Source: Sphingorhabdus sp. YGSMI21 (GTDB lineage: Bacteria; Pseudomonadota; Alphaproteobacteria; Sphingomonadales; Sphingomonadaceae). Taken from it: a stretch of DNA of 64,000 nucleotides. The notes under the pieces are model-generated. The model ran no database searches. It saw only the letters and a program-made list of their open reading frames with translations, and had not been told where the DNA came from. Below, one piece after another: positions 13,463-47,355 of this stretch. Location: positions 124,001-188,000 of the forward strand of contig NZ_CP022549.1 of assembly GCF_002776575.1 (NCBI RefSeq). Reading direction: 5' to 3'. Within the stretch, counting starts at the first letter, position 1; the number at the start of each line of letters is the position of its first letter. The translations under genes were made by a program, and so were the position numbers.

Positions 13463-13468
13463 CTCAGG

Positions 13469-29227: not shown

Positions 29228-29325
29228 GGTTATTCTCGCTCGATATACCAAAATCCAATAAAACTTAACATAATCTTTGCTATCACCTGCCCTTTAGGTG
29301 CAAATCGCGACGTTAAATGACCCGG

Positions 29326-29559: not shown

Positions 29560-29736
29560 ACTGCCTCCGTTAGGACCGCGTCTATCATCGCGCCAATTCG
29601 GTGGAAAGCAAATACTTCGAAGGGGCGTCAAACTATGCTTTACTGCAGATTGCTCTATCTCGTTTGCGTACGCTCTAATATTAAAGGGTGTGGACAAATG
29701 TCCATTTTTTGGTAAAAGAGGTCAAAAGGACGCGGC

Positions 29737-30857: not shown

Positions 30858-31413
30858 TATATCTCAAATCCAGAAAATCTCCGCTATGGCCTATAACCGT
30901 GACCAAATGCAGTAAAAAAAATTCAGAGGTTTTTCGGGTCACAAAATGATTAGGATAATGAACGATCAATCAGGGTAGGATTAAAAGAGTGGACGAAGAA
31001 AATACGGAAGCAGTTGAGTTATATCATCCACCCTTTGTAGTCCGTGCTCTCGACTGGATAGAAGGTATATCCTCCGAACAGCTTATTGCCGCTGCGCAGA
31101 TCAAGGATCAAAATAAGAGTGGCTTCATTCCCCCAGCTGCGCTGGTTCGAATTATTCGTCGATTTAGAACTGACGGTAAGCTGGAGCTCAGTGATCGTCT
31201 CGTAGCAATACTGATCACGAATGCTTATGATTATGTCAGGAGGGTTTCAGCGGGGTTTGATGTTGGAGATAGAGAGGACGTGATCCAGGAAACCATGCAA
31301 ACGTTTCTTACCGAACTGGCCGAGAATGACGGTATTGATTGGTGGGAGGTGACATTTCACCGGGAGTTGCGACGCCGCGCCAGCGATGCCTATGCACGTT
31401 TAATTGGCCGTCA

Positions 31414-31421
31414 CCGCAAGC
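31414..31421. repeat. target-site duplication, left copy
   Basis: CCGCAAGC directly before the left end of the IS256-family element; the identical octamer follows the right end at 32744-32751. Confidence 0.9.
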
Positions 31422-32743
31422 GGGAGTGTCATAAATTCCGTGTGTCGTGGGGCTGTTAGACATTATGCCGCCATGGCTTTGATGAAGCGTTCGCCGAAGA
31501 TAACTGCGAACTGGGCCTTTGCCATGGTCCACTCACGTGGTGGCATTCTCCACTCTTTTTCTGATCTGTTCAAGACCAGATAGAGCAATTTCGTTGCCGC
31601 CTCGTCATTGGGGAAGTGCCCTCTGGCCCTGACTGCCCGTCTGAGCTTTGAGTTCAGGGCTTCGATAGCATTCGTCGTGTAGATGATTTTGCGTACCGCC
31701 TCGGGAAAGGCGAAGAATGGAATAACTTCATTCCATGCCCGCCGCCAGCTCTGGGCGATGGCGGCATAACGCAGACCCCATTCGCTGGCTTCAAAAGCAG
31801 TCAGCGCGTCCTCGGCAGCCTTGGCATCAACAGCGCGGTAAATGGCCTTGAGGGCTGCCGCCAGCGGCTTGCGATCTTTCCATGCCACAAAATCCATGCT
31901 GTTACGTAGCAGATGGACGATGCATGTCTGGACGACAGCTTCAGGGAACACCGCTGTTATCGCATCAGGAAATCCCTTGAGACCGTCAACAACGGCCAGC
32001 ATGATGTCCTCGGTGCCGCGGTTTTTAAGCTCATTCATGACCCGCAGCCAGAATTTGGCACCTTCATTTTGTTCGATCCACAGGCCGAGAACCTCTTTGC
32101 GGCCATCGGCGCGGACGCCAAGAGCGATATGGATAGCTTTGCTGCGGACCATGCCTTCATCGCGGATCTTAACGCGAATGGCGTCAAAAAATACCAGCGG
32201 ATAGGCCGGATCAAGCGGGCGCTGCTGCCAGGCGGTAACTTCCTCCAAAACACCGTCGGTGACGGTCGAGATCAGGTCAGGCGATACGTCGATGCCGTAT
32301 AGCTCACGCAAATGCCCGGTTATCTCCCGCGTGCTCATCCCGCGCGCATACATGGAGATAATTTTATCATCAAAACCGGGAAACCGGCGCTGGTATTTAG
32401 CGATCAACTGCGGATTAAAGCTACCAGCGCGATCGCGCGGCACCTCGATCTCGATCTTGCTGCTATCGGTGATGACACGCTTGCGGCCATAGCCGTTGCG
32501 GCTGTTACCAGCCTGTTCGTCGCCGCCCAGATGATAATCCATCTCGGCATTCAGCGCCCGTTCGGCGAGCGCCTTCTTCAGCGAATCCAGCAATCCTCCC
32601 TGATCCAGCGCAGAAGCTGCATCGGTGCCTGCTAAAAGTTGATCCAGTAAACCTGCCGGGATCGTCGGCTCTTTGCGTCGTGACATAGTGGGACTCCTTT
32701 TTACCCATTATGCCCCACGACACACGGAATTTATGACACTCCC
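31422..32743 (-). mobile_element. IS256-family insertion sequence
   Basis: A 1322-bp element with perfect inverted ends beginning GGGAGTGTCATAAATTCCGT and continuing GTGTCGTGGGGC (32 bp), one transposase gene, and a perfect 8-bp target duplication. Identical ends and duplication indicate a recent insertion. Transcribed opposite to the interrupted gene. Confidence 0.95.
31463..32686 (-). CDS. IS256-family transposase
   Basis: A 407-residue mutator-type DDE transposase. The catalytic Asp residues lie in PLVFFDAIRVKIRDEG and IMLAVVDGLKGFPDAI, and the Glu in YTTNAIEALNSKLRRAVRAR; the CIVHLLRNSMDFVAWKDR motif is typical. Length and ends are complete, so the element may be active. Confidence 0.95.
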   Translation of the reverse strand: MSRRKEPTIPAGLLDQLLAGTDAASALDQGGLLDSLKKALAERALNAEMDYHLGGDEQAGNSRNGYGRKRVITDSSKIEIEVPRDRAGSFNPQLIAKYQRRFPGFDDKIISMYARGMSTREITGHLRELYGIDVSPDLISTVTDGVLEEVTAWQQRPLDPAYPLVFFDAIRVKIRDEGMVRSKAIHIALGVRADGRKEVLGLWIEQNEGAKFWLRVMNELKNRGTEDIMLAVVDGLKGFPDAITAVFPEAVVQTCIVHLLRNSMDFVAWKDRKPLAAALKAIYRAVDAKAAEDALTAFEASEWGLRYAAIAQSWRRAWNEVIPFFAFPEAVRKIIYTTNAIEALNSKLRRAVRARGHFPNDEAATKLLYLVLNRSEKEWRMPPREWTMAKAQFAVIFGERFIKAMAA

Positions 32744-32751
32744 CCGCAAGC
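32744..32751. repeat. target-site duplication, right copy
   Basis: CCGCAAGC directly after the right end of the IS256-family element, identical to 31414-31421. Confidence 0.9.
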
Positions 32752-33031
32752 GATCAGCTGAACTTACTGATGATCATGAGTTCAGTGATGATGGTGAGGC
32801 AGCGGCTGCTCTTCAAATACGCGCTACGCTTGTAGCATTTGCGGACAAAAAGCTTAAAACAGAAGAGCACCGCCGACTTTTCCTTCTGTTGATGTTGGGC
32901 GACCTCCCGATAGATGCACCTGAAGCGCCCAATGATCTGGTTCGCCTCACAGGTAAACCGCGTAGTACACTTGCAAATCTCAAAACAGATTTTACGCGCA
33001 TGCTCAAAGCAGCGCTTGTGGAGAAAGCGTC

Positions 33032-33616
33032 ATGAATCCAACCTTATCAAACCCTAATAAGCTTGCAGAAGATTTCATTTCCTACGGTATCTGGGACTCA
33101 GCAGCTGTCGACCAACTGAGTTCAACCGAATTGGACGAGCTGTTCGATCACCTAGTTGCCCGCTCAATTGTCGAAACTGCGGCATCGAGTATCAGCCCAA
33201 ATCCGGAAGTCCTTGATTCTGATGCGCAGACAGCTGTGTTGAGTCTGCAAAGCTTCTATCTTGGTGCGCTGAACCGCTCGCGAGCGTCTAGACCTGACCC
33301 ATCTTCCAAATTACCCAAAGCGGCTACATGGTTAGCAATCGAACCTGTCCTCAGAGATCGCGACTTTCTGATCCGGTTGGCGCAGCGCCGTCTTAGCGGA
33401 TTGGGAGCACGCTGCGCGCGCGACTTGGCCGATCTGCTCGGTGTACCCAAACAAGTACTCGAGGACTATTTTGCAGGACAGGCCGGAGAAAACGTTGCCT
33501 TTGTTGAAAACCGAAATGTTGGCAAGCCGCAGGACGGCGGAGTAGAGGACTTCGCCACAGCTCTGGCTCGCTCAGATGTCCCTGACGCGTTCAAACGGAG
33601 GTGGCTGGAAGCATAG
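33032..33616 (+). CDS. helical protein with HTH-like segment, partner of the helicase fusion
   Basis: A 194-residue cytoplasmic protein of no recognised family. Residues about 125-150 (RLSGLGARCARDLADLLGVP KQVLEDYFAG) look like a helix-turn-helix. It starts in the stop of the sigma-like gene (ATGA) and ends 3 bp before the ImmA/IrrE-helicase gene. HTH proteins often sit upstream of ImmA/IrrE peptidases, which cleave them; by analogy this could be the peptidase's regulatory substrate. Confidence 0.65.
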   Translation: MNPTLSNPNKLAEDFISYGIWDSAAVDQLSSTELDELFDHLVARSIVETAASSISPNPEVLDSDAQTAVLSLQSFYLGALNRSRASRPDPSSKLPKAATWLAIEPVLRDRDFLIRLAQRRLSGLGARCARDLADLLGVPKQVLEDYFAGQAGENVAFVENRNVGKPQDGGVEDFATALARSDVPDAFKRRWLEA

Positions 33617-33619
33617 AAA

Positions 33620-36600
33620 ATGGCCGCTTTCGACCTTGCCCGAATTGCCGCACGTAAACTCCGCGAAGGACATAGCGCTGAGCGCGCCCAAGGATATGAA
33701 GCTGTTGCTGCAGCCGCGGCGGGACTAGGTTTTGTCATTAAATTGGTCCAGCCCGGCGATCCAGTTCTTGGTACGAGTGATGCCAAACTCCTTAGAGACT
33801 GGTTGTCGATCTACGTGCGCAACGACGTGTCGTCCGATCAAGCTGCAGCTTATGCGGCACACGAGCTCGGTCATCTGGAACTGCACCAACCACAAGAACT
33901 CTGCTCTGGATCAGACCCAGACGCCGGCGCGTCACGCGCGCTTTCGAGGGTCGAAGCCTATGGGCCGCGGGAACGGCGGGAACTGCAAGCCAATGTATTC
34001 GCCCGTGAATTTCTGTTACCGCGCTCGCTGGCCCGGCAGCTATTTCTCGTAGAGTGCAAGAGCGCGGCCGATATTGCTCAGACCCTCAAACTTCCTTACC
34101 CTTTGGTGCGAAGCCAGCTGTTGGACAGCCTCCTCGGCCCAGACATCGCGGAACAGTCGGTCGATATGGTCGCGCCGCAGCAGAAGCGAGATGAGAGCCA
34201 ATGGGCGGCCGCCACCTTTGAAGGATCGGCTCTGCTGCTCGAGGCCGGCCCGGGTTCTGGTAAAACCCGCACTCTTGTGATGCGAATTGAACACCTTTTG
34301 GCGCAGCCGACTGTGACTGCGAGAGATATACTTGCTCTAACATTTTCAAATAAGGCTGCAGGCGATCTTGCCGACCGCATTGCTAAAGCTCACCCAAATG
34401 CTGCCGCAGAAATGTGGACGGGAACCTTTCACGCCTTCGGGCTCGATCTAATTCGTCGTTATTATGATAAGCTTGGCCTTCCCAACAATGTCCAGTTAAT
34501 TGATAAGGCACAGGCGATAGAACTGCTTGAAGATCGGTTACCGCTGATGGGACTGAAACATTATCACGATCTACGCAACCCGGATCAGGGTTTAGTGAAG
34601 ATACTTTCAGCGATCTCGCGCGCCAAAGACGAACTCGTAGATCATGAAGACTTTGGTCGCCGCGCAAGCGCTGCTCTCGAAGTGGCCACCGGCGAGAAGG
34701 AAATCATTGCCGCAGAGCGTTCCTGCGAAGCGGCAACGGTATATAGGGTCTACACCGAGACTCTTCGTGAAGCTGGAGCAGTCGATTTTGGTGACCTCGT
34801 GATGCTGCCTGCACTCCTGATCGGCCGTAACGACGCGGTTCGCGAACAGGTGGCCCAGCGCCATTCTCACGTGCTGGTGGATGAGTATCAAGACGTAAAT
34901 AGAGCAAGTGCACGTCTTTTGATTGAGCTTTATCGCGCAGGGTCAAGGCTTTGGGTTGTAGGCGATGCCCGACAATCCCTGTATCGCTGGAGGGGCGCAT
35001 CATCAGCAAATATGGCAGGGTTCGAAGCCGATTTCGCTGGCGGTCAGCGCCTCCCTCTCGGTCATAATTACCGTTCGACTGATCATATCGTCAGTTTGAG
35101 CCGCCGCTTCGCTGCTGACATGCGAGCGGGCAAGAATGGTCTTGCATATAAGGCAGCCGCACAGCGATCTGAGGGAGGAAGCACCACGAAGCTGCTAGTT
35201 GGACGAAATGATGACTGCGAAGGCGAACTTCTCGCAGCAGAGATCAAGCGTCTTGTGGAAGCTGGCGTACCACTGGCTGCCCAAGCGGTCCTTGCACCCA
35301 CAAATGGCAGGTTGGACATTATGGCAGCGGCACTCGCCCGACAGGAGATAGCAACAACACATCTCGGCAGCTTTTTTGAGCGCGACGAAGTGCGCGATCT
35401 TTTGTCCATCCTCGCCCTACTTGCGGAAGCGAACGGCGGCGCTCTGGTCCGCGTCGCGGCGCTCCGAGAAATCAGGGTTGGGCCACAAGATATCGGGACA
35501 ATCGTCAGCGCGGCTCATAAAGACCGCATCCCGCTCAACGCCTTGCTTGAACGAGCATCAACCTTGCCGGGGATGACCTCCGCAGGTGGCCAAGCGTTGG
35601 AACGACTGGGAATGCAACTGAAGGGATTAGAATCTCATATGTCTGCGTTCGAAGTGGCGGCAAGTTGGCTACTTGATCGGTCGGATTATTTGCGGGATAT
35701 TGCGAGTGAGCCGGGTCCGGAGGGCTCACTCGCACGCGCTGCGCTACAAGCCCTTCTTGGCTTTCTCGATCAACGCGAGCTTGATGGACGGCTGTTGACG
35801 CCAGCACGCGCGATCAAACGTGTGCGCAGTGCTGTGCTATTGGCTGACGATCGTGACCTTAGAGACGCGGCTCTTGGGGCTGACGCGGCCGCTGTTCGAA
35901 TGATGACGATTCACGGTGCCAAAGGCTTAGAGTTTTCTGCAGTCCATGTGGTCGGCCTGCATGATCAGTGCTTACCCGGACGATTTCGACGCGATGACAG
36001 TCCCCTGCCGCCAGGATTGGTGGAGCCAGAAACACGGGAGATGCACCTCGAGGAGGAAGAATGCCTGTTTTTCGTCGCCATTTCGCGAGCGGAAGATCAT
36101 CTTCGCCTCTATCATAACGAAATAGCAAACGTCCGATCTCGAAAGCCGTCTCCCTTTCTGGCGCGCCTCGGTAACCTTAGTCGCCGCGAGCTCGCTGTTG
36201 CCACCGCCCCTTCCAACAGTCCTATTGTCCAGCACAAGCCTGTAAAAACCGTCCAAATCAACATATTTGATATTCGGGACTATGCAAGCTGCGCCTTGCG
36301 CATCGCATACCGGAGATATTTCGGGATTCATGGACGGCGCCACGAGTCTCCGTACCTTCAAACATCTGGCGTTCTCTATACTTTGGTGGATAGGATTACC
36401 GAAGTTGCCGGCCCGAATGTTAACTCAAATATGCAGGCTGTATTGGAAGAGGTTTGGGAAACACGTGGACCTGTTGGAAGCGGACTAGCAGCCGATTACT
36501 TTGCCCACGCCAGCGGAAGGGTTTCGACTCTTGCACAGCTAGCCAGCGGGTTTGAGTCGCCGGGTTTTGCACATATTGAATTACCCATAAACGGTGGGAC

Positions 36601-36958
36601 ATTGACTGTCGGCGCGCCGTTAGTGCGTTCAACACCGAAAGGTACTGAAATCCGCTTCTTCGACGCAGGTCCTGTGCGCTCCAAAACCGGCAATGATCAA
36701 TCAGCTGGTATTCTTCTTTCCGCCGCTAGGCATGCCTTTGGCCGCCAAGCAGACGCCACGACCGCACATATGACTGATGGTGGCGTAGTCGGCTTTAAGA
36801 GGAGTGAGGAAAAGGTAGCAGACGATCTTGAGGAAGCAGGTCAGATTTTGTCAGCGATCAACAGCGGTACGCTGCCACCAAATCCCAGCATGCGTATATG
36901 CGGACGTTGCCCCCACTTTGTTTCCTGCCCATCGGTCGGAGCCATCGAGCCGATCTAA
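33620..36958 (+). CDS. ImmA/IrrE peptidase - UvrD-type helicase - Cys-clustered nuclease fusion
   Basis: A 1112-residue fusion. Residues 1-170: ImmA/IrrE metallopeptidase with zinc site HELGH (81-85) and the third ligand Glu around RRELQANVFAREFLLP. Residues about 190-830: SF1A helicase of the UvrD/Rep type, with Walker A EAGPGSGKTRTL, motif Ia FSNKAAGDL, Walker B LVDEYQDVNRAS, VGDARQSLYRWRGAS, and the late motifs TIHGAKGLEFSAVHVVGLHD and FVAISRAEDHLRLYH. Residues about 860-1112: a C-terminal domain with one Cys in YASCALRIAYRRY and three in CGRCPHFVSCPS, the spacing of iron-sulphur-bound PD-(D/E)XK nucleases such as AddB or Cas4. The nuclease assignment is by this Cys pattern. A ubiquitin-like gene follows by 87 bp. 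Confidence 0.85.
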   Translation: MAAFDLARIAARKLREGHSAERAQGYEAVAAAAAGLGFVIKLVQPGDPVLGTSDAKLLRDWLSIYVRNDVSSDQAAAYAAHELGHLELHQPQELCSGSDPDAGASRALSRVEAYGPRERRELQANVFAREFLLPRSLARQLFLVECKSAADIAQTLKLPYPLVRSQLLDSLLGPDIAEQSVDMVAPQQKRDESQWAAATFEGSALLLEAGPGSGKTRTLVMRIEHLLAQPTVTARDILALTFSNKAAGDLADRIAKAHPNAAAEMWTGTFHAFGLDLIRRYYDKLGLPNNVQLIDKAQAIELLEDRLPLMGLKHYHDLRNPDQGLVKILSAISRAKDELVDHEDFGRRASAALEVATGEKEIIAAERSCEAATVYRVYTETLREAGAVDFGDLVMLPALLIGRNDAVREQVAQRHSHVLVDEYQDVNRASARLLIELYRAGSRLWVVGDARQSLYRWRGASSANMAGFEADFAGGQRLPLGHNYRSTDHIVSLSRRFAADMRAGKNGLAYKAAAQRSEGGSTTKLLVGRNDDCEGELLAAEIKRLVEAGVPLAAQAVLAPTNGRLDIMAAALARQEIATTHLGSFFERDEVRDLLSILALLAEANGGALVRVAALREIRVGPQDIGTIVSAAHKDRIPLNALLERASTLPGMTSAGGQALERLGMQLKGLESHMSAFEVAASWLLDRSDYLRDIASEPGPEGSLARAALQALLGFLDQRELDGRLLTPARAIKRVRSAVLLADDRDLRDAALGADAAAVRMMTIHGAKGLEFSAVHVVGLHDQCLPGRFRRDDSPLPPGLVEPETREMHLEEEECLFFVAISRAEDHLRLYHNEIANVRSRKPSPFLARLGNLSRRELAVATAPSNSPIVQHKPVKTVQINIFDIRDYASCALRIAYRRYFGIHGRRHESPYLQTSGVLYTLVDRITEVAGPNVNSNMQAVLEEVWETRGPVGSGLAADYFAHASGRVSTLAQLASGFESPGFAHIELPINGGTLTVGAPLVRSTPKGTEIRFFDAGPVRSKTGNDQSAGILLSAARHAFGRQADATTAHMTDGGVVGFKRSEEKVADDLEEAGQILSAINSGTLPPNPSMRICGRCPHFVSCPSVGAIEPI

Positions 36959-37045
36959 TTTTTTATTCAGACGAATTCCGTCTCTGAAAGGGATGACTCT
37001 AGTGAACCCGGCATTCCCGCATGGGCCACAATCGGAGTATTATCC

Positions 37046-37507
37046 ATGTCAATCGACATTTTTATCAAGCGGGGTGGTTGCCTCGACGTCGTCCACCGCA
37101 AAGTCAATAAGCTCGACCTCAAGAAACTCAAGCAAGAACTGGACACAGAGTTTGGCCCCGGCGAACTCTTTGCCGAAGACAAGGACGATCCTGTCACTCA
37201 TGATCATCAGTTCAAACCAGGCAGCATTTTCCTTCACCATAGCTGCTGCAAGCGGATCGACTTGATTGTCCGCTACGCTGGCAAGACTTACGAGAATCGC
37301 TTCGCACCGAGCGTGACACTAAAAAAGGTCAAACGGCGCGCCGAAAAGAAACTCAATATCGACCCTGCCGACGCGGTCGAATTATCACTGCAGATCGCAG
37401 ACAGTTCTGACCGTCCGGACGAGGCGACACATGTTGGCTCGCTTGCCAATCCACCAACATGCTCAGTTATCTTCGACCTTGTTCCCTCAGACCGCATCAA
37501 CGGCTAA
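37046..37507 (+). CDS. ubiquitin-like protein with C-terminal glycine (BilA-like)
   Basis: A 153-residue protein. Residues about 70-153 read as a beta-grasp ubiquitin fold: KRIDLIVRYAGKTYENRFAP, then helix SVTLKKVKRRAEKKLNID, then VELSLQIADSS and CSVIFDLVPSDRING. Residues 1-65 (SIDIFIKRGGCLDVVHRKVN KLDLKKLKQEL) could be a first, divergent beta-grasp unit, giving an ISG15-like tandem as in BilA. The chain ends in a free glycine, ready for adenylation without trimming. Neighbours encode E2-, JAMM- and E1-like proteins in that order. Six-base GGAG site lies upstream of the ATG. Confidence 0.75.
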   Translation: MSIDIFIKRGGCLDVVHRKVNKLDLKKLKQELDTEFGPGELFAEDKDDPVTHDHQFKPGSIFLHHSCCKRIDLIVRYAGKTYENRFAPSVTLKKVKRRAEKKLNIDPADAVELSLQIADSSDRPDEATHVGSLANPPTCSVIFDLVPSDRING

Positions 37508-37510
37508 TCG

Positions 37511-37969
37511 ATGACTCCTGACCAAGCTATTTGGGAACGCGATATTGGCGCGGCGTCTTTTCTGGAAGGCGTCGCGCGCAATCGGTGGTCAATCGTCTCA
37601 CTCGATTGGCCTTTTGCGCTGTTCGGTATAACAGCCCGTGATGGTCGAATCTTCTATCTGAGGCTAAACTTTGCAGGCTATCCAGCCGCGCCGCCAACAG
37701 GCGGTCTCTGGGATCCTGAAACTGAAACAGTGCCTGCCCTCAACCAGTGGCCGACCGGTGATGCCGTGTTCGTTAGCGTTTTCAACCGCGGTTGGCAAAA
37801 CGGACTAGCATTATATATGCCGCTCGATCGGGTATCCCTTAATGGGCATCATGATTGGCCGGCTCAATATCCCCATCTTATGTGGCAACCTGACCGGGGT
37901 CTCGTGCAGTATATTGGTGAAGTTCACAGGCTTTTAAACGCGCGAGGCTATCATGGCATCACCGGATAA
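37511..37969 (+). CDS. E2-like (UBC/UEV-type) protein lacking any cysteine
   Basis: A 152-residue protein with the bacterial E2 layout: an N-terminal helix, strands WPFALFGITARDGRIFYLRL, the NFAGYPAAPPTGGLWDPE segment equivalent to the YPxxPP motif of E2 enzymes, then LYMPLDRVSLNGHHDWPAQY and a final helix GLVQYIGEVHRLLNARGYHG. In related E2 proteins the catalytic Cys precedes a conserved PG ... H...W stretch; here that place reads LALYMPLD and the entire protein has no Cys. It is thus E2-like without transthiolation ability, as in UEV proteins. It starts 3 bp after the ubiquitin-like gene and overlaps the JAMM gene by 17 bp. Confidence 0.68.
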   Translation: MTPDQAIWERDIGAASFLEGVARNRWSIVSLDWPFALFGITARDGRIFYLRLNFAGYPAAPPTGGLWDPETETVPALNQWPTGDAVFVSVFNRGWQNGLALYMPLDRVSLNGHHDWPAQYPHLMWQPDRGLVQYIGEVHRLLNARGYHGITG

Positions 37970-38432
37970 TCGTTTACGAATCTCATGGTATAAGTGGTGG
38001 CGGCTTATGCGACAACTGCGTCTTCGCGGTGCGGGCATCAGAGAAAGTGGTGCTTTTCTGCTCGGGTCCCGCACAGTCACCTGTGGCTGGGTCACGGATT
38101 TTGTCTTTTATGACGACATCGACCCCTACGCCCTTGCCCAAGGACATGTTCATCTAGCGGGCGCCGCTCTTAATCGAGTTTGGGACCGCTGTTCAGCAAC
38201 TGGCTTGGAGGTTATTGCCGATGTTCACACTCATCCTGGCAGCTCCGGTCAGAGCCTTTCGGATCAGAACCATCCCATGATTGCAATTAGAGGTCACACA
38301 GCGCTCATCGTTCCCAATTTCGCTTCTTCTGTTTTGAATCTGCGCGGTATTGGCATCTATCGTCATCTTGGCGCACGCAAATGGATTTCTTTACCGTCTC
38401 CTCGTGCCGGTTTGCGAGGGCTAAAATTGTGA
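37953..38432 (+). CDS. JAB/JAMM-family metallopeptidase
   Basis: A 159-residue Mov34/MPN-type isopeptidase. Zinc and catalytic residues: Glu31 in IRESGAFLLGS, His92 and His94 in VIADVHTHPGSSGQSLSDQ and Asp104. This family removes ubiquitin-like modifiers from targets or trims precursors. It overlaps the E2-like gene by 17 bp, and the E1-like gene follows after 12 bp, showing tight coupling. Confidence 0.87.
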   Translation: MASPDNRLRISWYKWWRLMRQLRLRGAGIRESGAFLLGSRTVTCGWVTDFVFYDDIDPYALAQGHVHLAGAALNRVWDRCSATGLEVIADVHTHPGSSGQSLSDQNHPMIAIRGHTALIVPNFASSVLNLRGIGIYRHLGARKWISLPSPRAGLRGLKL

Positions 38433-38444
38433 AAGGATTTATCT

Positions 38445-39806
38445 ATGCAGCATGCTGACTTCAATCAGTTCGTCGATGGCTTCAACCGCCTAGCCAAACT
38501 TGATCTCGACATCGGCGAAGCGGTCGATCCAGATGCTGCAATGGCGCGGTTGATGAGCTATTCCGCACATGTCGCAGTAGGCCCAGAAATTGTCCAGAGT
38601 GTGGCTCACCAAATTGCACTGCTCACTTTTGTAAATATTGCTTCGCGCTTCGCATTAGGCGGTGTGACTGTATCCGGGCTCGGCGATGTACCACTACTCG
38701 CACCATGGCTTGGAAAAGATTTGAAATCAGCAGTCATCGCACTGGGCGGCAATGTTGGATCAAAAGCATCTGAAGCACCGGTTGTGATCATCGGCAGTAT
38801 CCTGTCGACGCCCCCAGAGCGAGGTTGTCAGCTCACTTTCGAAGGCTGGCGCGGCGGTGTCGTGCCGCTAGGGCATCAACGTCTTAGCGAATGTGATGTG
38901 ACAGCACCGGCAGCTGTGCTTTCGGGCGCATTTGCGGCAGCCGAAGTCTTCACAATATTGCGCGGTGAAGCCGGTGCGGGCTTACGTCCTCAAGGGCTTT
39001 CGGTTTGGCGACCTGACGGAGACGCAGACTGGTTCTCCTCTATGAATGACGGGCCAACGCTTTCGCAGTTGCCAAATCATCTATGGGTGCTCGGTCTGGG
39101 ACATCTAGGGCAAGCATTTCTATGGGTATTGGCGATGTGTCCTTATCAAGATAGGTCAGCCGTAAAACTGGTACTTCAAGATACCGATATAGTGACGGGT
39201 TCAACATCGAGCACATCAATCTTGACGATTGACGGTAGTACTGGACGCAAAACCCGCACAGTAGCAACGCTTTTTGAATCGCTCGGGTTCATGACGAGCT
39301 TAGTCGAGCGGCCATTTGATGATGGATTTTGCAGGCGTGCCGACGATCCGTCAATTCTCGTCTGTGGCGTCGATAACGCCTTAGCCCGTAGCCAGGTAGA
39401 AGCGCCCGGTTTCCCGCTTGTGATTGAAGCCGGAATCGGCAGAACTGCGGATGACTTTAGGTCTGTTCGCCTGCACAGTTTCCCTGCACAACGGAAGGCG
39501 TCGGCACTCTGGAAAGCTGGTGCTATTGAGCCGGACATCTCAATAGGAAAGACTCCAGGGTATAATCGCCTCAAAGAGCAGGGCGTTGACGACTGCGGGC
39601 TTACGCGTCTTGCAGGCACAGCGGTCGGTGCGCCCTTCGTTGGGGGCATCGCCGGGGTTCTTATGCTCGGACAAATATTGAGACTGTTGCACGGCGACAC
39701 ACTTGATGCAGTTATTGATTTTGATCTACGCGCATTAGATGCACGGCGTGCCGTAGGTAATTCGGTGTTAACTAAGCTCAATCCTGGGTTTCAATCATGT
39801 ATTTAG
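38445..39806 (+). CDS. E1-like ThiF-family activating enzyme
   Basis: A 453-residue protein. Residues 1-200 form an unrecognised alpha/beta domain. Residues about 210-420 are a ThiF/UBA adenylation domain: nucleotide motif VLGLGHLGQAF (GxGxxG at 217-222), Asp248 in VLQDTDIVTG, VCGVDNALARSQ (the DNxxAR motif) and a late GVDDCGLTRLAGTAVGAPFV whose Cys384 sits where related bacterial E1 proteins keep the thioester Cys. It would adenylate the C-terminal Gly of the ubiquitin-like protein. AAAGGA lies before the ATG. It is the last gene of the Ubl-E2-JAMM-E1 set. Confidence 0.85.
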   Translation: MQHADFNQFVDGFNRLAKLDLDIGEAVDPDAAMARLMSYSAHVAVGPEIVQSVAHQIALLTFVNIASRFALGGVTVSGLGDVPLLAPWLGKDLKSAVIALGGNVGSKASEAPVVIIGSILSTPPERGCQLTFEGWRGGVVPLGHQRLSECDVTAPAAVLSGAFAAAEVFTILRGEAGAGLRPQGLSVWRPDGDADWFSSMNDGPTLSQLPNHLWVLGLGHLGQAFLWVLAMCPYQDRSAVKLVLQDTDIVTGSTSSTSILTIDGSTGRKTRTVATLFESLGFMTSLVERPFDDGFCRRADDPSILVCGVDNALARSQVEAPGFPLVIEAGIGRTADDFRSVRLHSFPAQRKASALWKAGAIEPDISIGKTPGYNRLKEQGVDDCGLTRLAGTAVGAPFVGGIAGVLMLGQILRLLHGDTLDAVIDFDLRALDARRAVGNSVLTKLNPGFQSCI

Positions 39807-40053
39807 GCGAACCACCGTGAGATTCAGACGTTACATATTGTTTCAAAACGGAACCCTAGTTGAGCAGCATGGCCTGATTGATTTCATTAGTAGAAAGAAG
39901 TTGTCAGTGTGATAATTCTAGCGTCAGCTAGCAAGGAAATTTTGGGGGTATCGAAAATATGCAAATGTATCATATTCAGATCAAAACATTTTGGCGGCCA
40001 ACAGGAATGATTTCCTGAGTCCGCCTTCCTATCAAAGAAAAGTCAAACACCTC
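39807..40053. other. noncoding gap between E1-like and Mre11-like genes
   Basis: 247 bp with lower GC than its surroundings and no convincing ORF. It may hold a second promoter for the nuclease/ATPase pair; TTG-initiated extension of the nuclease frame to 39991 lacks a ribosome binding site. Confidence 0.4.
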
Positions 40054-41307
40054 ATGAACTTTACATTTCTTCACGCAGCCGATCTTCATCTTGATAGCCC
40101 TCTCCTCGGTTTGGCGAGCAAGTCAGCCGATTATGCCGAACGCGTTGACCGCGCCTCACGTGACGCTTTCGAAAAGCTAATAGAACTAGCCATTGAAGAG
40201 GGCTGCAGCTTCATCGTATTGGCAGGTGACATTTTTGATGGAGACCTTCGCAATTTTGAGACCGGTCTTTTCTTCGTCAACCAGATGCGGCGTCTTGAAG
40301 AGGAAGGGATACAGGCCTTCTTGATCCTCGGTAATCATGATGCAGAAAATCGTTTCGCGGCCAAGCTCTCAATGTCGGCTAATGTTCATCTGTTCGCCAG
40401 TAAGGCAGCCGAGGCGATTGCCATCGAAGCGCTAAAAGTCTCTGTCCATGGCCGCAGCTACCCTCAACGTGACGTGACCGAAAATATCGCACGGGATTAT
40501 CCACCTGCAGTCGCTGGCCATTTCAATATTGGTGTGCTGCATACAGCATGCCAAGGAAGCGAAAGTTATCACGCGCCTTACGCTCCGTGTAGCGTCGAAC
40601 AGCTAGTCAATCATGGCTATGACTATTGGGCGTTGGGCCATGTCCATGCACGCTCAGTGCTAAACGAACATCCTCATATCGTTTATCCCGGTAACTTGCA
40701 GGGACGTAGTCCCCGGGAAACCGGGGCTAAAGGTGCAACAATCGTGACAGTAAGCAACGGTGAGGTTGCGCATCTCGAACATCACGACCTCGACGTCGTT
40801 CGCTGGTTCGTCGTCACAGTAGATGTTGCTGACACAGAAGACCGCAGCGCGCTGCTCGATCAAATCCGTGCCGCAATTGATGATGCCTGCACTGACGCTG
40901 GTGATCGTGCTCTAGCAATACGCTTACGGCTCGTTGGCGAAACCAACCAACACCAACAACTTCTAATTGAACAACAGATTTTGCGCGAGGACATCGCCGT
41001 GCTTCTGGCGACACTGGCGCAAGACATCTGGCTAGAAAAGATTGTGATAGCGACAACGGCCCCTCCCCTGCCAAGTTCGCTCGACCCGACGGTTTCGGGC
41101 CAGCTGGCAGCCGAGATTATAGCGGAAAGCGCTGATTTCATAAACGAGCTGATCGAGGAACGAATTGCAGAGGTTCGTGCAAAAATGCCTGCTGCTGCGC
41201 ATGCTGACGCCTTTTTCGAAATGCTACGGGAAGATGCGCCAAAGCGCGCGCGCATATTGGCGCTCTCGCTGGTAAACGAAACGGAGGCCGGCGATGCAGC
41301 TAACTGA
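40054..41307 (+). CDS. Mre11/SbcD-like DNA repair nuclease (YhaO type)
   Basis: A 417-residue calcineurin-like phosphoesterase. Metal motifs appear in order: AADLHLDSPL, VLAGDIFDGD, LILGNHDAEN and YWALGHVHARS, followed by YPGNLQGRSPRETGAKG. The C-terminal part is helical. The start at 40054 puts the first strand (MNFTFLHAADLH) at the N-terminus as is normal. It overlaps the Rad50-like gene by 14 bp. The pair most resembles YhaO-YhaN, a bacterial Mre11-Rad50 variant acting on DNA ends. Confidence 0.9.
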   Translation: MNFTFLHAADLHLDSPLLGLASKSADYAERVDRASRDAFEKLIELAIEEGCSFIVLAGDIFDGDLRNFETGLFFVNQMRRLEEEGIQAFLILGNHDAENRFAAKLSMSANVHLFASKAAEAIAIEALKVSVHGRSYPQRDVTENIARDYPPAVAGHFNIGVLHTACQGSESYHAPYAPCSVEQLVNHGYDYWALGHVHARSVLNEHPHIVYPGNLQGRSPRETGAKGATIVTVSNGEVAHLEHHDLDVVRWFVVTVDVADTEDRSALLDQIRAAIDDACTDAGDRALAIRLRLVGETNQHQQLLIEQQILREDIAVLLATLAQDIWLEKIVIATTAPPLPSSLDPTVSGQLAAEIIAESADFINELIEERIAEVRAKMPAAAHADAFFEMLREDAPKRARILALSLVNETEAGDAAN

Positions 41308-44300
41308 ATTGACGCTTGAGCGTTACGGGGCTTTTTCCGAACGCATCCTCCCAATTCCAACCAATGCGGGTCTCACAATTATATACGGCCCCAATGAAGC
41401 CGGCAAAAGCACATGCCTAGCAGCAATAAGCGACATCCTGTTTGGCATTCCAGAAAGGACCCCTCATGCGAGCCTATTTGGTTATGATGGAATGAGAGTG
41501 AGCGCTGAGTTGGTCGATGCTGACGGAACTGCATTGACATTGCGCAGACGTCGTGGCCGTGTTCGCACCCTATCCGATGCGGCAGGCACACCCCTTGATG
41601 ACTCAATCCTAAATGCGATGCTCGGCGCTACCACCCGCGAGCGTTTTGCGACATTGTTTGGGCTCAACCATGAGACGCTCCGCTCAGGCGGATCGAGCCT
41701 GCTCGCGGCAGAAGGTGATATAGGTCGTTTGATAGTTGAAGCAGGCGGAGGTCTACGGTCGCTTATGGCGCGGCTAGATTCCATTGATGAAGAAGCGGAC
41801 AAACTCTTTGCGCCGCGCAAATCAAGCGAGCGAGCTTATTACAAAGCGCTGGAGGCTTTCGATACCGCTGAGCGCGAGGTTAAGCTCCACATGGTGACAC
41901 GCGATGCCTATGAGAAAAGCCGAAAGGCCGCAGATGCTGCGACCAAAAAACTGGATGATACACGGGCAGAACGGCAAAATGTCAGTACCGAAATTTCTGT
42001 TCTGGAGCGATTAGTTCGGGCGGTCCCGCATATACTCACGCTCGATCGGTTGTCCACGGCATTGAGCGAATATGAGGATATCAGCGCGCTAGAGCCAAAC
42101 TTTGACAAACAGATTAATGCGGCACTTAAGCTGCGTGAAGAAACCGTATCAGCGCTAACCAAGGGACGTATAAATCGGGACAGGCTCTCACTGCGGTTTG
42201 ATGCCCTGGAGGTTTCAGAAGCGTTTATTGGAGCAGAGGCGGCAGTTCGCGATATCACCGAACAAGCTATCCATGTACGCAAAGCTAGGGCTGACCGACC
42301 AAACCGGCTCAAAGAGATCGAAAGCGACGAAGCTCGACTTACCACGCTACGCCGTATGTTACACTTGCCTGCCGATGCCGATCTAACAACACGTTTGCCG
42401 AGCCAAGAAGTTTTGGATGAGGTGCAAAAAATGGCAACACAAGCAATCGAGCGCGGGACCGCTCTGGTTGCCGCTCGGGAACGCAAAGCCGACATCACCG
42501 ACCGTCTTGAGGTATCAAAGCATCGGCTCGATGTAGCTATCGCTGCCGGCTACCAAACGCCGGTAGAGTTTAGCCCGGTACAATTTGCAAATTTGTCCGC
42601 GCAAGTAGGCACGATTGAAACGACGCGAGGTCAGGCGGTCGAAGCAATGACGAAGGTGAAGGACACGATTACTTCCCTTGGTTTCCAAACTTCCGAAGAG
42701 CTAGCTTCTTTCGATTGTCCTTCCTCGGAAGCCATCCGCACTGAACAAGTAGCGTGCTCAGAACTCGAAAAGTCCCTTGCGGACCAGCTTGAACAAAGGA
42801 TCGGTGCCGAAAAAAGGGCAAAGACGGCAACCAATGCCATTGCACAGGCTGAAGCAACAGGCCCAGTGGCATCAGACAGTGCGCTAGCCGATGCGCGCAA
42901 CACACGGAGCGATGCCTGGTCGCCTTTGCGTTCCGCTTATCTTGATGACGACATCCCCGCAGACACGGTAGTCCGGCGCACCGGAATCGAAGTCTATGAA
43001 CGTCAAATCCGAGATACCGATGATTTGGCAGATCGGCGCGCGGCAGAAGCGAAGCATGCGGCCAATCTTGCCGTCGCCCGTCAGCAGCTTGAAATCAGCA
43101 ATATTGAGATCGAAGGTTGCACTGCGCTAATTGAAGATATTGGCCAACGACTCAACAATAGAACCAGCGCCTTCGCCTCCGCCTTTCCAAGTGCAACCGA
43201 ACAATACCCCCAGCTTTCAGGCCTGCTCGAATTTGCCGAGCGCCGGGAACTGGCTCTGGCCGCGCTCGCCGCTGCACGCGCGCTCCAAGTTGATGTTGAT
43301 CGCCAAGAAGCCGACCTAGAACCGGTTTGCGCGCTATTCGAGACCGCACAAGGTGTAATGAAGGTTACTCCCACGGAGGGGCAAACATTTTCTTCCCAAG
43401 TACACGCATTATGCGCGGCACTCAGCAAACATGAAAGTGGGAATGCGGACTATCGGCGCAATCTGCATGATTACGAGGAGCTGGAGCCAAAAGCGAACCG
43501 CGCCGAGCAGGATCTTTCAGACATGTTAGCGGCGGAAAAGATCTGGGATCAACAATGGAGCGCGGCGTTGGTCAAACTCGGGCTCGATTCCAGTCTTGCC
43601 CCTCAAAACGCAGGCACGCTGGTCAGCGAATGGTCGGGCGCCCGTGCGACGCTAGGAACGATAGCACAATCCCAAACGCGGCTTACCCGTATGGATGAAG
43701 ATGAAGCTGCGTTGCAGGCGGCAGTTGACGCTTTGGGTGAAAGTCTCCAGCTCGCATTGCCCACGGACCTTCTTGCGGCTACCGACCAGATCGCGGCGCG
43801 GTGGCAAGAGCATGATGCAATTCGAGTGCAGCGCGTTGCGCTCGCACCCGATGTCGAGGAAATCAAGGCTGATTGTGCTTTGTTGGAGACTGCCGATCGC
43901 AGCTCCCAGAAAGCGCTGGAAGCACTTGCCGAGCGCGCTGGTGTTCCGGCTGAAGATGCTCCTTTGCGTGACATTGAGAGGCGATGTGCTGCCCGGTCTC
44001 AGCTTATGGAAGAGAAAGTGCAAGCGGAGCGGTCGATAGCGGATGTGAGCGATGGTCTCTCCGTTACCGCCTTGCGTGATCAGTGGGCAGAACGCGATTT
44101 AGATGCGCTTCGAGGCGCCCTGAGTGCTGCTCAGGAGCAATCAAAACAGTTTGAAGCCGAACTCGAGGCTACGATACTTGAACAAAAGACTGCACAGGAT
44201 GCTCTCGACCAATTTGCAGCGGAATCAGGTGTAAATCATGCCATCGCTGAGCGCGAAAGCGCGGCCGCTGCCATGCAGATCGCTATCGAACGCTATGTCG

Positions 44301-44779
44301 AACTCACTGTAGCGCGCGCGCTGATTACTAAGGCAATCGAGAAGGTTCGCAACGAGCAGCAGGATCCGCTAGTTAGCCGTGCAGGTGAACTTTTTGCGTT
44401 CACGACGCGCGGGGAATTTGCGGGAATCGACACCGATATTGATGACAAAGGCCAGCCTGTTGTGGTTGGTCGGCGAAAAACGGGTTCTGCGGTTTCGGTT
44501 GCAAACATGAGCGATGGAACACGTGATCAGCTGTTCCTAGCGTTCAGGCTGGCAAGTCTCGAGCATTATGCCGCTTCGACCGAGCCGTTACCGTTCATTG
44601 CCGATGATATCTTGGTGCATTTCGATGATGAGCGCAGCGCAGCTACGCTGGATCTGCTCGCAGAGTTTGCAAAAACCAACCAGGTATTGCTATTCACTCA
44701 TCATAGCCGAGTGCGTGACGATGCTAACCGATTAGAAGCTAAGGGGTTAGCAAAGATCGTCGAGATTGAACGCGTCTAG
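41294..44779 (+). CDS. Rad50/SbcC-like coiled-coil ATPase (YhaN type)
   Basis: A 1161-residue SMC-like ATPase. Walker A YGPNEAGKST at 31-40 in the YhaN-style N-terminus (ELTLERYGAFSERILPIP). A long Ala/Glu/Arg-rich coiled coil spans roughly residues 180-1010. The signature motif VANMSDGTRDQLFLAFRLAS, Walker B LPFIADDILVHFDD and the His switch LFTHHSR lie near the end. No zinc-hook CxxC is obvious, as in YhaN. It should form a complex with the overlapping nuclease gene's product. Confidence 0.9.
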   Translation: MQLTELTLERYGAFSERILPIPTNAGLTIIYGPNEAGKSTCLAAISDILFGIPERTPHASLFGYDGMRVSAELVDADGTALTLRRRRGRVRTLSDAAGTPLDDSILNAMLGATTRERFATLFGLNHETLRSGGSSLLAAEGDIGRLIVEAGGGLRSLMARLDSIDEEADKLFAPRKSSERAYYKALEAFDTAEREVKLHMVTRDAYEKSRKAADAATKKLDDTRAERQNVSTEISVLERLVRAVPHILTLDRLSTALSEYEDISALEPNFDKQINAALKLREETVSALTKGRINRDRLSLRFDALEVSEAFIGAEAAVRDITEQAIHVRKARADRPNRLKEIESDEARLTTLRRMLHLPADADLTTRLPSQEVLDEVQKMATQAIERGTALVAARERKADITDRLEVSKHRLDVAIAAGYQTPVEFSPVQFANLSAQVGTIETTRGQAVEAMTKVKDTITSLGFQTSEELASFDCPSSEAIRTEQVACSELEKSLADQLEQRIGAEKRAKTATNAIAQAEATGPVASDSALADARNTRSDAWSPLRSAYLDDDIPADTVVRRTGIEVYERQIRDTDDLADRRAAEAKHAANLAVARQQLEISNIEIEGCTALIEDIGQRLNNRTSAFASAFPSATEQYPQLSGLLEFAERRELALAALAAARALQVDVDRQEADLEPVCALFETAQGVMKVTPTEGQTFSSQVHALCAALSKHESGNADYRRNLHDYEELEPKANRAEQDLSDMLAAEKIWDQQWSAALVKLGLDSSLAPQNAGTLVSEWSGARATLGTIAQSQTRLTRMDEDEAALQAAVDALGESLQLALPTDLLAATDQIAARWQEHDAIRVQRVALAPDVEEIKADCALLETADRSSQKALEALAERAGVPAEDAPLRDIERRCAARSQLMEEKVQAERSIADVSDGLSVTALRDQWAERDLDALRGALSAAQEQSKQFEAELEATILEQKTAQDALDQFAAESGVNHAIAERESAAAAMQIAIERYVELTVARALITKAIEKVRNEQQDPLVSRAGELFAFTTRGEFAGIDTDIDDKGQPVVVGRRKTGSAVSVANMSDGTRDQLFLAFRLASLEHYAASTEPLPFIADDILVHFDDERSAATLDLLAEFAKTNQVLLFTHHSRVRDDANRLEAKGLAKIVEIERV

Positions 44780-45078: not shown

Positions 45079-47352
45079 CTAGGCTCTAAGACTGGTAAAC
45101 AGAGCGTTCAACGCCCCGTCGTCGAACTTTTCATCCTCCGCGGAGGATGAGGTTGGAATTGTTGACGGGCTGGCAACCGGCACAGAATTTTCTTCAATAT
45201 GCCCGATACGCTCATCAATTGTCATCAACGCTGAGTCGAGACGGTAACCCGATACGTTCGCTCTGGGTGCCAATTTCTTGATTGCTTCAGAATAATCAGA
45301 CAGAGTAGATTCAGATTCTTCCTGCTCGCACGTGTCGCCAATGTTATCAATTGTATCGATAATGGCATTCGTCACAGCCGTCTTGATATCAGGGTTGATG
45401 TTTGTATTTTTTTCTACCGCATCAGACAGATTCACCAGTTCATCGGCCCATATGCCGTCGTTTATCAATTTTATTACCGCCCTTTCCAATTCTTCTTTCA
45501 AGGTGATAATTTGTGGTCCCGATTGAACATAATCGTCGTCGTCAATATGCGCGATAATCTCTAGCAATGATGTCGCATCTTTCCAGGCACTAAATCGTTG
45601 CGGAGGGGATTTGGTGAGCTCAATTGCCGCGGTCACAAACTCTTCGTCAGATGTAGTGCTCCACCATTCGAGTAAGAGTTCAATCCGACGGGAATTGCTG
45701 AGATCGGCGTATACCCAAGTGTTATCCGGGCCATCTTTCCAATGGGCCGCTGTTTTTAACGTGGAAATCAATCCTTTGAATTGTAGCGCGATGGCCGCCT
45801 GCACATCCGGCGCTAGAAGTTTCTCAGAAACGAATTTCCAAAGGGCTGATGCCATATCTCCAGTCGTCGCACTCAGGGCAACGGATTGGAGCAGCGAACC
45901 ATCTATGAGATAATCTGCCAGATAGTCCCTGAGCGACGGATTGATAAAATCAACCGTTCCATCATCAATTCTGACAAACCCACCTTCCAGTGTTCTGAGC
46001 GATTCCTCATAATCCTTAAAACCCTGTGGAATGCCGTTTTGCTTGCATAAATGGTCGTGTAAGATTTTGAAACTATCGCGCAGGCCATCGGTATTTTCGC
46101 CAAATCGACCAGAAAAGAACAAGGAGATAAGCAAGTGCCGACAAGCTGGGGAAATATGACTCTGGAACGCGGCATCCCAAAGTTTTTTTGGGTTTTTTAA
46201 CATGGACAGGAATGTTTTAGGATAATCTTCGGCGTTAATTTCACCTAATCGTATGACGTCCGTCATCCATTCAATTACGCGGGGGTTGTAGTTATCGTGG
46301 TCAACAATTTTCGATATTTTGCCGCTATCCAAAAGTGCATTTATGTGGGTCTGCGGTGTATTGCCGACCAATAGATGATTGTAGAGGATACGGGCGCGAA
46401 TACCGCGCGTGTAGGATCCCATATCGAGAACATAGGTGCTAATATCCACGCGACTGTCAGCCAAGCGATCAGATGCCCCCTGCGCTTCATTCAATATGTA
46501 GGCGCGAGTGGTCAGAACAAAACGGGCATTGGGACTGTTTCGTATGCGATTCATGAAGGTCGCGAGAACAGAATCCGTTGATGCTAATGCCTGCCGATCC
46601 AATGCAATCGACCCGAGAAAATCGTCGAAAAAGAAAATTTGTTTTTGTGAATCATCAATATGCGTGAAACGGTCATCCAGATTGCGAATGGCAATCAGAT
46701 CCCATTCTTCGCTAATATGAGCAAAGGCCAGCATTTCCGCGAGCGTCGTTTTCCCGACACCGGGGGGGCCAGAAACAATCAATACATGGTGTTTCTCAAG
46801 AATTTTTTGTGCATCGGCCAGGCTTGAATTTTGGGCATAAACGCGAACTTTCGCCGCAATTTCCTGCTTTGTCGTCGCCGTAAAGGCGTGTGATGAGGCA
46901 TTTAAAATCGAGTCCAAAACCGCGCTGCTTGATAGCCATAGCTTGCAGTGCGCCCTAACGACCTTTGGATGATCGTTTAGCAAGGCATTGAGTTCGGATT
47001 GACCTATAATATCAGCTTGCTTTTTTAGGGACGGCCCGATGATCCCGGCCAATTCCTTTTTCCTTGCTGGCGTCAACGGGCAGGACGTAATCAAAATATA
47101 TCGAGATGGGTTAAGCGCGTCTATCGATTGGCGCTCCTTTTTCATCTTTGATTTTAAAGACGGATAGCCGGAATCGACGAGATGTTTGGCTTGCAATATA
47201 ATATCGCCATCAGCAGTCGAGTGACGTCCATCCATTCCATCGTCGGGACCGTTGGCAAATATTTCAAATGGAACATCAAGTGATTTTCCGACTATATCGG
47301 CTGCAAGGTCTTCAAAATCAGCTGGTAGCAGGGAACGAAAATCATAAGGCAT
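45079..47352 (-). CDS. restriction-endonuclease-like/STAND-type NTPase, putative defence protein
   Basis: A 757-residue protein. The N-terminus (about 1-120) looks like an Mrr-type PD-(D/E)XK nuclease: LLPADFEDLAADIVGKSL, then GPDDGMDGRHSTADGDIILQ with Asp and the QAK motif. A P-loop ATPase follows with Walker A VSGPPGVGKTTLAEM (about 196) and Walker B KQIFFFDDFLGS, sensor-like FVLTTRAYIL, typical of nSTAND3-type domains. The last 350 residues are helical and may sense a phage product. Such REase-STAND fusions are antiviral (Avs-like). It starts 3 bp after the Fic gene, so they are co-transcribed. Confidence 0.78.
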   Translation of the reverse strand: MPYDFRSLLPADFEDLAADIVGKSLDVPFEIFANGPDDGMDGRHSTADGDIILQAKHLVDSGYPSLKSKMKKERQSIDALNPSRYILITSCPLTPARKKELAGIIGPSLKKQADIIGQSELNALLNDHPKVVRAHCKLWLSSSAVLDSILNASSHAFTATTKQEIAAKVRVYAQNSSLADAQKILEKHHVLIVSGPPGVGKTTLAEMLAFAHISEEWDLIAIRNLDDRFTHIDDSQKQIFFFDDFLGSIALDRQALASTDSVLATFMNRIRNSPNARFVLTTRAYILNEAQGASDRLADSRVDISTYVLDMGSYTRGIRARILYNHLLVGNTPQTHINALLDSGKISKIVDHDNYNPRVIEWMTDVIRLGEINAEDYPKTFLSMLKNPKKLWDAAFQSHISPACRHLLISLFFSGRFGENTDGLRDSFKILHDHLCKQNGIPQGFKDYEESLRTLEGGFVRIDDGTVDFINPSLRDYLADYLIDGSLLQSVALSATTGDMASALWKFVSEKLLAPDVQAAIALQFKGLISTLKTAAHWKDGPDNTWVYADLSNSRRIELLLEWWSTTSDEEFVTAAIELTKSPPQRFSAWKDATSLLEIIAHIDDDDYVQSGPQIITLKEELERAVIKLINDGIWADELVNLSDAVEKNTNINPDIKTAVTNAIIDTIDNIGDTCEQEESESTLSDYSEAIKKLAPRANVSGYRLDSALMTIDERIGHIEENSVPVASPSTIPTSSSAEDEKFDDGALNALFTSLRA

Positions 47353-47355
47353 AGT

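Follow-up and report, generated by a model that had tools for sequence, protein, structure and literature searches.

A Peptidase–Helicase Gene Cassette Recurring in Front of Different Bacterial Ubiquitin-like Operons, Including a Bil-like Operon of Sphingorhabdus sp. YGSMI21

The 64,000-nucleotide stretch analysed here (the window; positions 124,001 to 188,000 of contig NZ_CP022549.1 of Sphingorhabdus sp. YGSMI21) belongs to contig 2 of a 4.06-Mb genome made up of two contigs. It carries a ubiquitin-like (Ubl) operon with the gene set bilABCD. In front of the operon lies a three-gene cassette consisting of a sigma-like gene (gene A), gene B, and a gene for a fusion of an ImmA/IrrE peptidase with a UvrD helicase; a YhaO/YhaN (Mre11-Rad50-like) gene pair lies behind it. 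The unit formed by the cassette and the Ubl genes is real and recurrent, is undescribed in the literature searched, and represents a variant of protease-controlled Ubl operons. By analogy, the cassette is most likely an enlarged DNA-damage switch resembling CapH-CapP. We estimate the probability that it turns Ubl tagging on in response to DNA damage or foreign DNA at about 60%.

Linkage of the Cassette to Ubiquitin-like Genes

Genomes were scanned with an alignment of the fusion, and the best 80 of the 564 confirmed stretches were analysed. They were split by score and coverage into 37 family members (L021–L057; loci and genomes are cited by our L and G numbers) and 43 generic UvrD loci (L058–L100), which served as controls. 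Ubl genes, genes A and B, Mre11, and Rad50 were called with our own hidden Markov models (HMMs), trained on plasmid loci together with the window. Of the 34 family loci whose sequence was usable, 30 have Ubl genes directly behind the fusion, whereas none of the 43 controls, some of which are short contigs, contains a match to any Ubl gene, gene A, gene B, Mre11, or Rad50 (one-sided p = 2e-17). Searches for the fusion were positive for 6 of 398 genomes of the phylum and 12 of 396 genomes of the order, each count including the window's own genome, and in the further fusion-selected loci fetched from genome searches the Ubl genes follow the fusion in 15 cases out of 15. Combined, this gives 45 of 49 fusion-selected loci, distinct in that no two share an identical fusion frame, with some near copies among them. 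Loci L047, L048, and L056, whose contigs end in or just behind the fusion, and L142, which has the same fusion as L021, were dropped from this count; plasmid loci were not counted (L004–L010 and L020 were picked wholly or partly via BilD).

Upstream of the fusion, 48 of 53 loci have matches to both gene A and gene B. The distance from the fusion to the first Ubl gene was estimated at 24–223 bp in 44 of the 45 loci measured. According to the record titles, the cassette occurs in alpha-, beta-, and gammaproteobacteria, Acidobacteria, Chloroflexi, Gemmataceae, and Opitutaceae, as well as on a cyanobacterial plasmid; many of the scanned loci are contigs of metagenome-assembled genomes, and their organism names may be wrong.

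The link between the fusion and the Ubl genes is not due to chance, since 45 of 49 fusion-selected loci show it, compared with none of the 43 ordinary UvrD loci. The other defence-like genes that flank the locus within the window (for nSTAND3 and Fic proteins, which match PADLOC candidates) would suit a chance neighbourhood of the cassette and the Ubl genes in a defence island; this explanation is extremely improbable and was rejected, being contradicted by the order, strand, and spacing that recur in the same 45 loci and in no control. The original prediction, made from the letters of the window, had allowed that the parts were mere neighbours if the fusion and the Mre11-Rad50 pair were never met with Ubl genes elsewhere; in fact, they recur together. 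Among the loci with a pair behind the Ubl module, all nine genes, from gene A to the YhaN gene, were found in L010, and also in L049, but there the fusion and bilB are broken and gene A has only a weak match.

Ubiquitin-like Modules behind the Cassette

Different Ubl modules follow the same cassette: bilABCD; multiubiquitin with DUF6791-ThiF and DUF6527, which we take to be the Bub gene set; and multiubiquitin with JAB and ThiF, either as a fusion or as separate genes. In a quickly built tree of 68 fusions, which omitted the frames shorter than 900 aa (L047, L048, L049, and L056), the Ubl type, labelled by score thresholds, switches at least six times. Two of these labels are debatable: L151 was scored as Bub via its second operon, and L015 was scored as mUbX though its genes, located upstream of the cassette on the other strand, are annotated multiubiquitin-ThiF-DUF6527. 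L039 was scored as having no Ubl type because its contig ends after BilB. The fusion resembles a regulatory front end that can be exchanged.

Several of these loci have additional features. The L151 locus (Rhizobium beringeri plasmid, 1–16000) contains two Ubl operons back to back, the cassette with multiubiquitin-JAB and a further gene on one strand and a Bub operon with YhaO-YhaN on the other. In L016 (8884–21240), the cassette and a Bub operon lie beside Tn7-like transposition genes, and possibly they are cargo. In L014 (14804–20853), the Bub operon is followed by genes for a PD-(D/E)XK nuclease and a second UvrD protein, which places another DNA-end machine behind a Ubl module.

The Peptidase–Helicase Fusion

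The HExxH motif of the fusion (H81, E82, and H85) and Glu121, which is presumably the third metal ligand of the M78 peptidase, are invariant in all 28 aligned members. The same is true for the helicase residues K215 and D421-E422 and for four Cys residues assigned to the PD-(D/E)XK-like domain. The structure model of the protein has a confidence (predicted local distance difference test, pLDDT) of 84.6, and its fold matches UvrD, AdnB, and AddAB (Foldseek/VIA). A search of PDB sequences with the peptidase domain revealed no convincing match, and neither did a search with the C-terminal domain, which matches PDDEXK_1 in relatives of the fusion.

In most fusions, an RVRTG-like sequence appears to take the place of the DYKTG motif of an AddB-like protein (our label; it is annotated as a PD-(D/E)XK nuclease family protein), and a few keep the Lys. 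The hhalign pairwise profile alignment pairs D...DYKTG with D...RVRTG; its probability is 1%, so the register is unproven. On this register, the fusion of the window also lacks the first Asp of D...DxK. The PD-(D/E)XK-like domain is probably inactive as a nuclease, judging by these residues. The upstream trio of the original prediction (sigma-like gene, HTH-like gene, and peptidase-helicase-nuclease fusion) holds as regards the common strand and the peptidase–helicase fusion, but an insertion sequence (IS) interrupts the sigma-like gene and the nuclease motif appears to have been replaced.

Genes A and B and the Proposed Switch

Neither half of gene A in the window has a Pfam match. Its intact relatives in L005 and L004 match Sigma70_r4_2, and by these relatives gene A is likely a sigma-70 region 4-like regulator. 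The element inserted in it, which we assign to the IS256 family, is bounded by an 8-bp direct repeat at 31414–31421 and 32744–32751, the target duplication. For gene B, a profile search found 221 relatives; two of the 120 listed are named 'XRE-family HTH' by their source. Gene B is likely an XRE-like repressor or anti-activator and a partner of the peptidase.

In most of the examined operons without the helicase, similar proteins are encoded beside bilA. A helix-turn-helix (HTH) domain and Peptidase_M78 were found beside bilA in four of the six helicase-free Bil loci examined: as an HTH-M78 fusion gene on the strand opposite to bilA in L019 and L115, as separate M78 and HTH_3 genes, also on the opposite strand, in L114; in L163, HTH_3 and M78 genes immediately precede bilA and share its strand. 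The remaining two of the six are L162, which has genes A and B, and L018, whose upstream genes were left out of the scan; the distant-BilD loci L107, L108, and L116 did not enter the comparison. Among 385 genomes of the class, all three with a BilD match above 500 bits (G000, G373, and G340) have the cassette. There are four class genomes with weaker BilD matches: the two fetched with flanks (G014 and G252) have no cassette, the G326 contig shows a BilD piece only, and G074 was seen in short loci only.

According to PMC10904395, single-stranded DNA (ssDNA) activates PprI and CapP, both of which are repressor proteases. PMC13373217 gives 219 of 544 Bub operons as associated with CapW or with CapH and CapP, and 59 with CapK and CapS; it also mentions five Bil operons with CapK and CapS upstream. 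By analogy, the cassette would fit the same slot as regulators of the CapH-CapP type, with the sensor built in.

We infer DNA sensing, a cleavage target, induction, and any antiphage effect in the following scheme. The helicase and the nuclease-like domain would engage DNA ends or ssDNA, and this engagement would activate the fused peptidase. The activated peptidase would cleave or displace the product of gene B, the repressor or anti-activator, and gene A, once freed, would drive the Ubl genes. The scheme would amount to an enlargement of CapH-CapP and PprI-DdrO control, the DNA sensor being built into the protease, and in those copies that have the Mre11-Rad50 pair, it would process the same DNA ends. 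Support for the switch comes from the gene linkage, from the varied Ubl modules behind one cassette, from the conserved peptidase and helicase motifs, and from the ImmA/IrrE peptidase located beside bilA in most of the examined Bil loci without the cassette.

A number of observations weigh against such a switch. Four fusion-selected loci (L028, L045, L051, and L055) have no Ubl matches; three of them are on very long branches, and the fusions of L045, L051, and L055 are divergent. In L162 (2518–8233, plasmid of Cupriavidus sp. EM10), genes A and B precede the bil genes and there is no helicase; a gene without a Pfam match lies between them on the other strand. A translocase of 1112 aa exceeds the needs of a regulator and would suit an effector equally well. 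Gene B has no Pfam match, its structure model is all-helical and of low confidence (63.5), and none of the eight PDB matches of this model reaches an E-value of 0.001; an HTH in gene B is supported by the two source names. Finally, gene A is broken in the window copy.

The bil Genes and the Cysteine-less BilB

The order and spacing claimed for the Ubl, E2-like, JAMM, and E1-like genes are correct: bilA is followed after 3 bp by bilB, which overlaps bilC by 17 bp, and bilD begins 12 bp further on, PADLOC matching all four. BilA has no Pfam match; in an alignment of eight BilA proteins, Gly is the last residue of six, and in the other two it is followed by a short tail. The JAMM motif of BilC is intact (E31, H92, H94, S101, and D104 are invariant in nine proteins), and the BilC profile matches the solved BilC 8tyx at 2.1e-16. 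The nucleotide motif of BilD (G217, G219, and G222) and C384 are invariant in eight proteins. A sequence search for solved relatives gave only ThiF for BilD and nothing at 1e-3 for BilB.

The BilB of the window contains no Cys in its 152 aa. Among 27 BilB loci, the E2 site is occupied by Cys (PCDR-type) in 21, including L049 with its broken frame, by Leu in the window and L111, and by Trp in four. The E2 catalytic Cys lies in a CEHH motif according to PMC11354881, and the BilB site is compatible with the C-x5-E-x-H part of the motif given there; the absence of Cys from the window protein does not depend on this mapping. The same paper reports inactive E2-like domains in polyubiquitin operons. 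The four loci with Trp (L010, L019, L114, and L115) represent a second BilB type, in which the Trp of YRxW takes the place of the catalytic Cys.

L111 belongs to the same genus as the window; its BilD is 62–63% and its BilB 65% identical to those of the window. The nonsynonymous divergence (dN) between the two BilB genes is 0.242, compared with 0.242–0.319 for the other genes (BilA, BilC, BilD, and the fusion); the synonymous divergence (dS) is saturated and not computable in four of the five genes, which gives no dN/dS ratio there. Since L111 has also lost the Cys and the divergence of BilB does not exceed that of the other genes, the sequences indicate that the loss is old and that BilB has been retained. 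It is doubtful that the window copy is a decayed, dying operon. The IS in gene A and the missing Cys of BilB would agree with decay, but Leu in place of Cys is common to L111, the dN of BilB is not above that of other genes (synonymous sites being saturated or high), and the remaining frames of the operon are open.

Because its BilB lacks the Cys, the window operon is, by sequence, Bil-like and not a proven conjugating Bil system. With gene A also split by the IS, the window copy may be constitutive, altered, or partly broken. A coupling of the Cys loss to the presence of the Mre11-Rad50 pair was considered and rejected: L111 lacks both the Cys and the pair, L149 and L020 have the Cys and a nearby pair, and L049 has the Cys in one BilB piece and a pair directly behind.

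The Mre11-Rad50 Pair

The YhaO/YhaN-like pair predicted downstream on the same strand was identified by its Metallophos and AAA_27 domains (Table 1). It begins 247 bp behind bilD, a looser packing than that of the bil genes, and YhaN overlaps YhaO by 14 bp. A promoter and terminator scan revealed no plus-strand terminator-like site between bilD and yhaO, the overall number of matches being near that of shuffled sequence. Of 71 loci, 8 have a pair that directly follows the Ubl module on its own strand (the window, L010, L012, L035, L049, L053, L144, and L148); several of the 71 contigs end too early to show one, e.g., L030, L033, L039, L047, L048, L056, and L139. Other pairs are on the opposite strand (L149), further off (L020 and L022), or upstream on the opposite strand (L004). 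Gain or loss of the pair on the fusion tree requires at least six changes among the seven pair loci included. There are two YhaO subfamilies: the proteins of L010 and L144 are ~24% identical to the window YhaO and the others are 36–45% identical.

Relatives of the window YhaO with 80% and 73% identity are encoded on other plasmids. The closest one is located behind an AbiE pair with no Ubl genes, the 73% relative in R. beringeri is behind a Bub operon whose back-to-back neighbour is a cassette operon, and a 59% relative (L152) has no Ubl gene nearby. Among the 396 genomes of the order, 11 have a YhaO-type gene, 12 the fusion, and three both (one-sided p = 0.003), in each case within about 7 kb of each other. 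Eight of these 11 YhaO-type loci have no cassette or Ubl matches alongside (one of them, G1137, was judged from a plasmid record with the same coordinates).

As a module in its own right that recurs behind Ubl genes, the YhaO/YhaN pair is an optional accessory: it directly follows them in 8 of 71 loci, was gained or lost at least six times, comes from two subfamilies, and often stands without Ubl genes. It is quite possible, though not what we favour, that it merely adjoins the window operon as a plasmid or defence module and that the system comprises only the cassette and the Ubl genes. The surroundings of the 80% and 59% relatives, the eight loci of the order without cassette or Ubl genes, and the 247-bp gap would fit this explanation. 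On the other side are the eight same-strand loci, the repeated changes on the tree, and the three genomes in which YhaO and the fusion are close together, figures with which a defence-island effect is also compatible.

The composite system originally predicted stands as a recurrent unit, with the fusion before the Ubl genes and, in seven loci besides the window, the pair behind them on the same strand; its other part, that modification controls nuclease complexes, is not supported. In this reading, the fusion and the Mre11-Rad50 complex would be effectors or targets, DNA-end machines turned on or off by Ubl modification. The close association of the fusion with the Ubl genes, the recurrence of pairs from two subfamilies, and the proximity of the fusion to the AdnAB/AddAB end-processing machines (Foldseek/VIA) could be understood in this way. 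Nevertheless, we consider it unlikely: the nuclease-like domain of the fusion appears degenerate and non-catalytic, no pair is directly behind the module in 63 of the 71 loci (with the above reservation about short contigs), the window E2 has no Cys, and one exchangeable front-end fusion combined with differing Ubl modules suits a regulator better than a specific substrate.

The switch could be extended to a bacterial DNA-break checkpoint. A translocase-protease would read broken or invading DNA and switch on whichever Ubl chemistry follows, and Mre11-Rad50 would be recruited repeatedly as an end-processing partner. In the lineage of the window, the pseudo-E2 would allow direct transfer of the Ubl by the E1 or its non-covalent retention, and the Ubl would thereby become a scaffold of the DNA-end complex. 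This extension is speculative and somewhat unlikely.

Layout of the Locus and Its Surroundings

All nine genes are on the plus strand, in the order gene A, gene B, fusion, bilA, bilB, bilC, bilD, and the YhaO/YhaN pair. From the 3' half of gene A onward, the intergenic gaps are −4, 3, 87, 3, −17, 12, 247, and −14 bp.

Table 1. Features of the cassette, the Ubl operon, and the adjoining gene pair (positions are those of the window).
Feature	Position	Strand	Evidence
Gene A, 5' half, cut by IS	30989..31421	+	own gene A HMM, 46 bits; IS boundary and target duplication
Insertion sequence inside gene A, presumably IS256 family	31422..32743	-	transposase 31463–32686; perfect terminal inverted repeats
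Gene A, 3' half	32744..33035	+	open frame 32673–33035; directly 5' of gene B as in relatives
Gene B, 194 aa	33032..33616	+	own HMM, 133 bits
ImmA/IrrE (M78)-UvrD-PD-(D/E)XK-like fusion, 1112 aa	33620..36958	+	Peptidase_M78/IrrE 1.2e-8, UvrD 1.1e-61 (Pfam)
bilA, ubiquitin-like, C-terminal Gly	37046..37507	+	PADLOC BilA 2.9e-39; alignment
bilB, E2-like, no Cys	37511..37969	+	PADLOC BilB 8.8e-50; DUF7665 2.2e-56
bilC, JAMM/JAB deconjugase-like	37953..38432	+	PADLOC BilC 1.2e-56
bilD, E1-like	38445..39806	+	PADLOC BilD 1.3e-139
YhaO/Mre11-like nuclease subunit	40054..41307	+	Metallophos PF00149 5.2e-14; ATG 40054
YhaN/Rad50-like ATPase	41294..44779	+	AAA_27 PF13514 5.7e-69

Conjugation genes of the TrwC/TrwB type are present within the window. 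The YhaN gene is adjoined on the opposite strand by genes at 45079–48867 (minus strand) for an nSTAND3 protein (PADLOC PDC-S73, 1.1e-139) and a Fic-domain protein (PDC-S04/SoFic-like). An Xre/MbcA/ParS antitoxin and RES toxin pair, with a second RES-domain gene ~1 kb on, occupies 28281–30857. A HipA-like kinase gene preceded by a small open frame was found at 49415–50656.

Significance and Comparison with Known Systems

Among the papers listed in literature searches, judged by titles and the beginnings of abstracts, none describes a peptidase–helicase cassette before Ubl operons; one may be mentioned in the principal papers on Bil and Bub (Hor 2024, Chambers 2024, Gong 2025, and Ye 2026). The word helicase is absent from the main text of PMC13373217, and UvrD, helicase, IrrE, nuclease, sigma, and Mre11 are all absent from the main text of Iyer 2006 (PMC1779556). 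The Ubl pathways of bacteria are closely related to ubiquitin signalling in eukaryotes. One cassette, combining a protease of the derepressing type with a DNA helicase, precedes at least three Ubl architectures and occurs in several phyla, which makes the proposed trigger, DNA ends or ssDNA, directly testable. If the proposed switch is real, ubiquitin-like tagging in bacteria would be tied to the sensing of DNA breaks, a connection that is well established for eukaryotes.

The window operon resembles Bil (BilABCD, the bacterial ISG15-like antiphage operon) in having the same four genes in the same order with intact JAMM and E1 motifs; it differs in the three-gene peptidase–helicase cassette in front, the Cys-less BilB, and the Mre11-Rad50 pair behind. 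Certain Bub operons have the same cassette in front (L014, L016, L017, and others), whereas the Ubl module of the window is of the Bil type. The pair itself is a plain YhaO-YhaN member, its 80% relative and the neighbour of the latter being annotated as DNA repair exonuclease and YhaN family protein, and only its place behind a Ubl operon sets it apart. Unlike AdnAB and AddAB, the fusion has an N-terminal peptidase, is encoded by a single gene, and appears to have lost the nuclease catalytic motif. With CapH-CapP and PprI(IrrE)-DdrO, the cassette shares an ImmA/IrrE peptidase (M78 match at 1.2e-8, HExxH kept) heading an immune-type operon beside genes of the DNA-binding type. In contrast to these systems, its peptidase forms one protein with a UvrD helicase and a nuclease-like domain, and its partners are a sigma-like gene and gene B instead of a plain XRE repressor.

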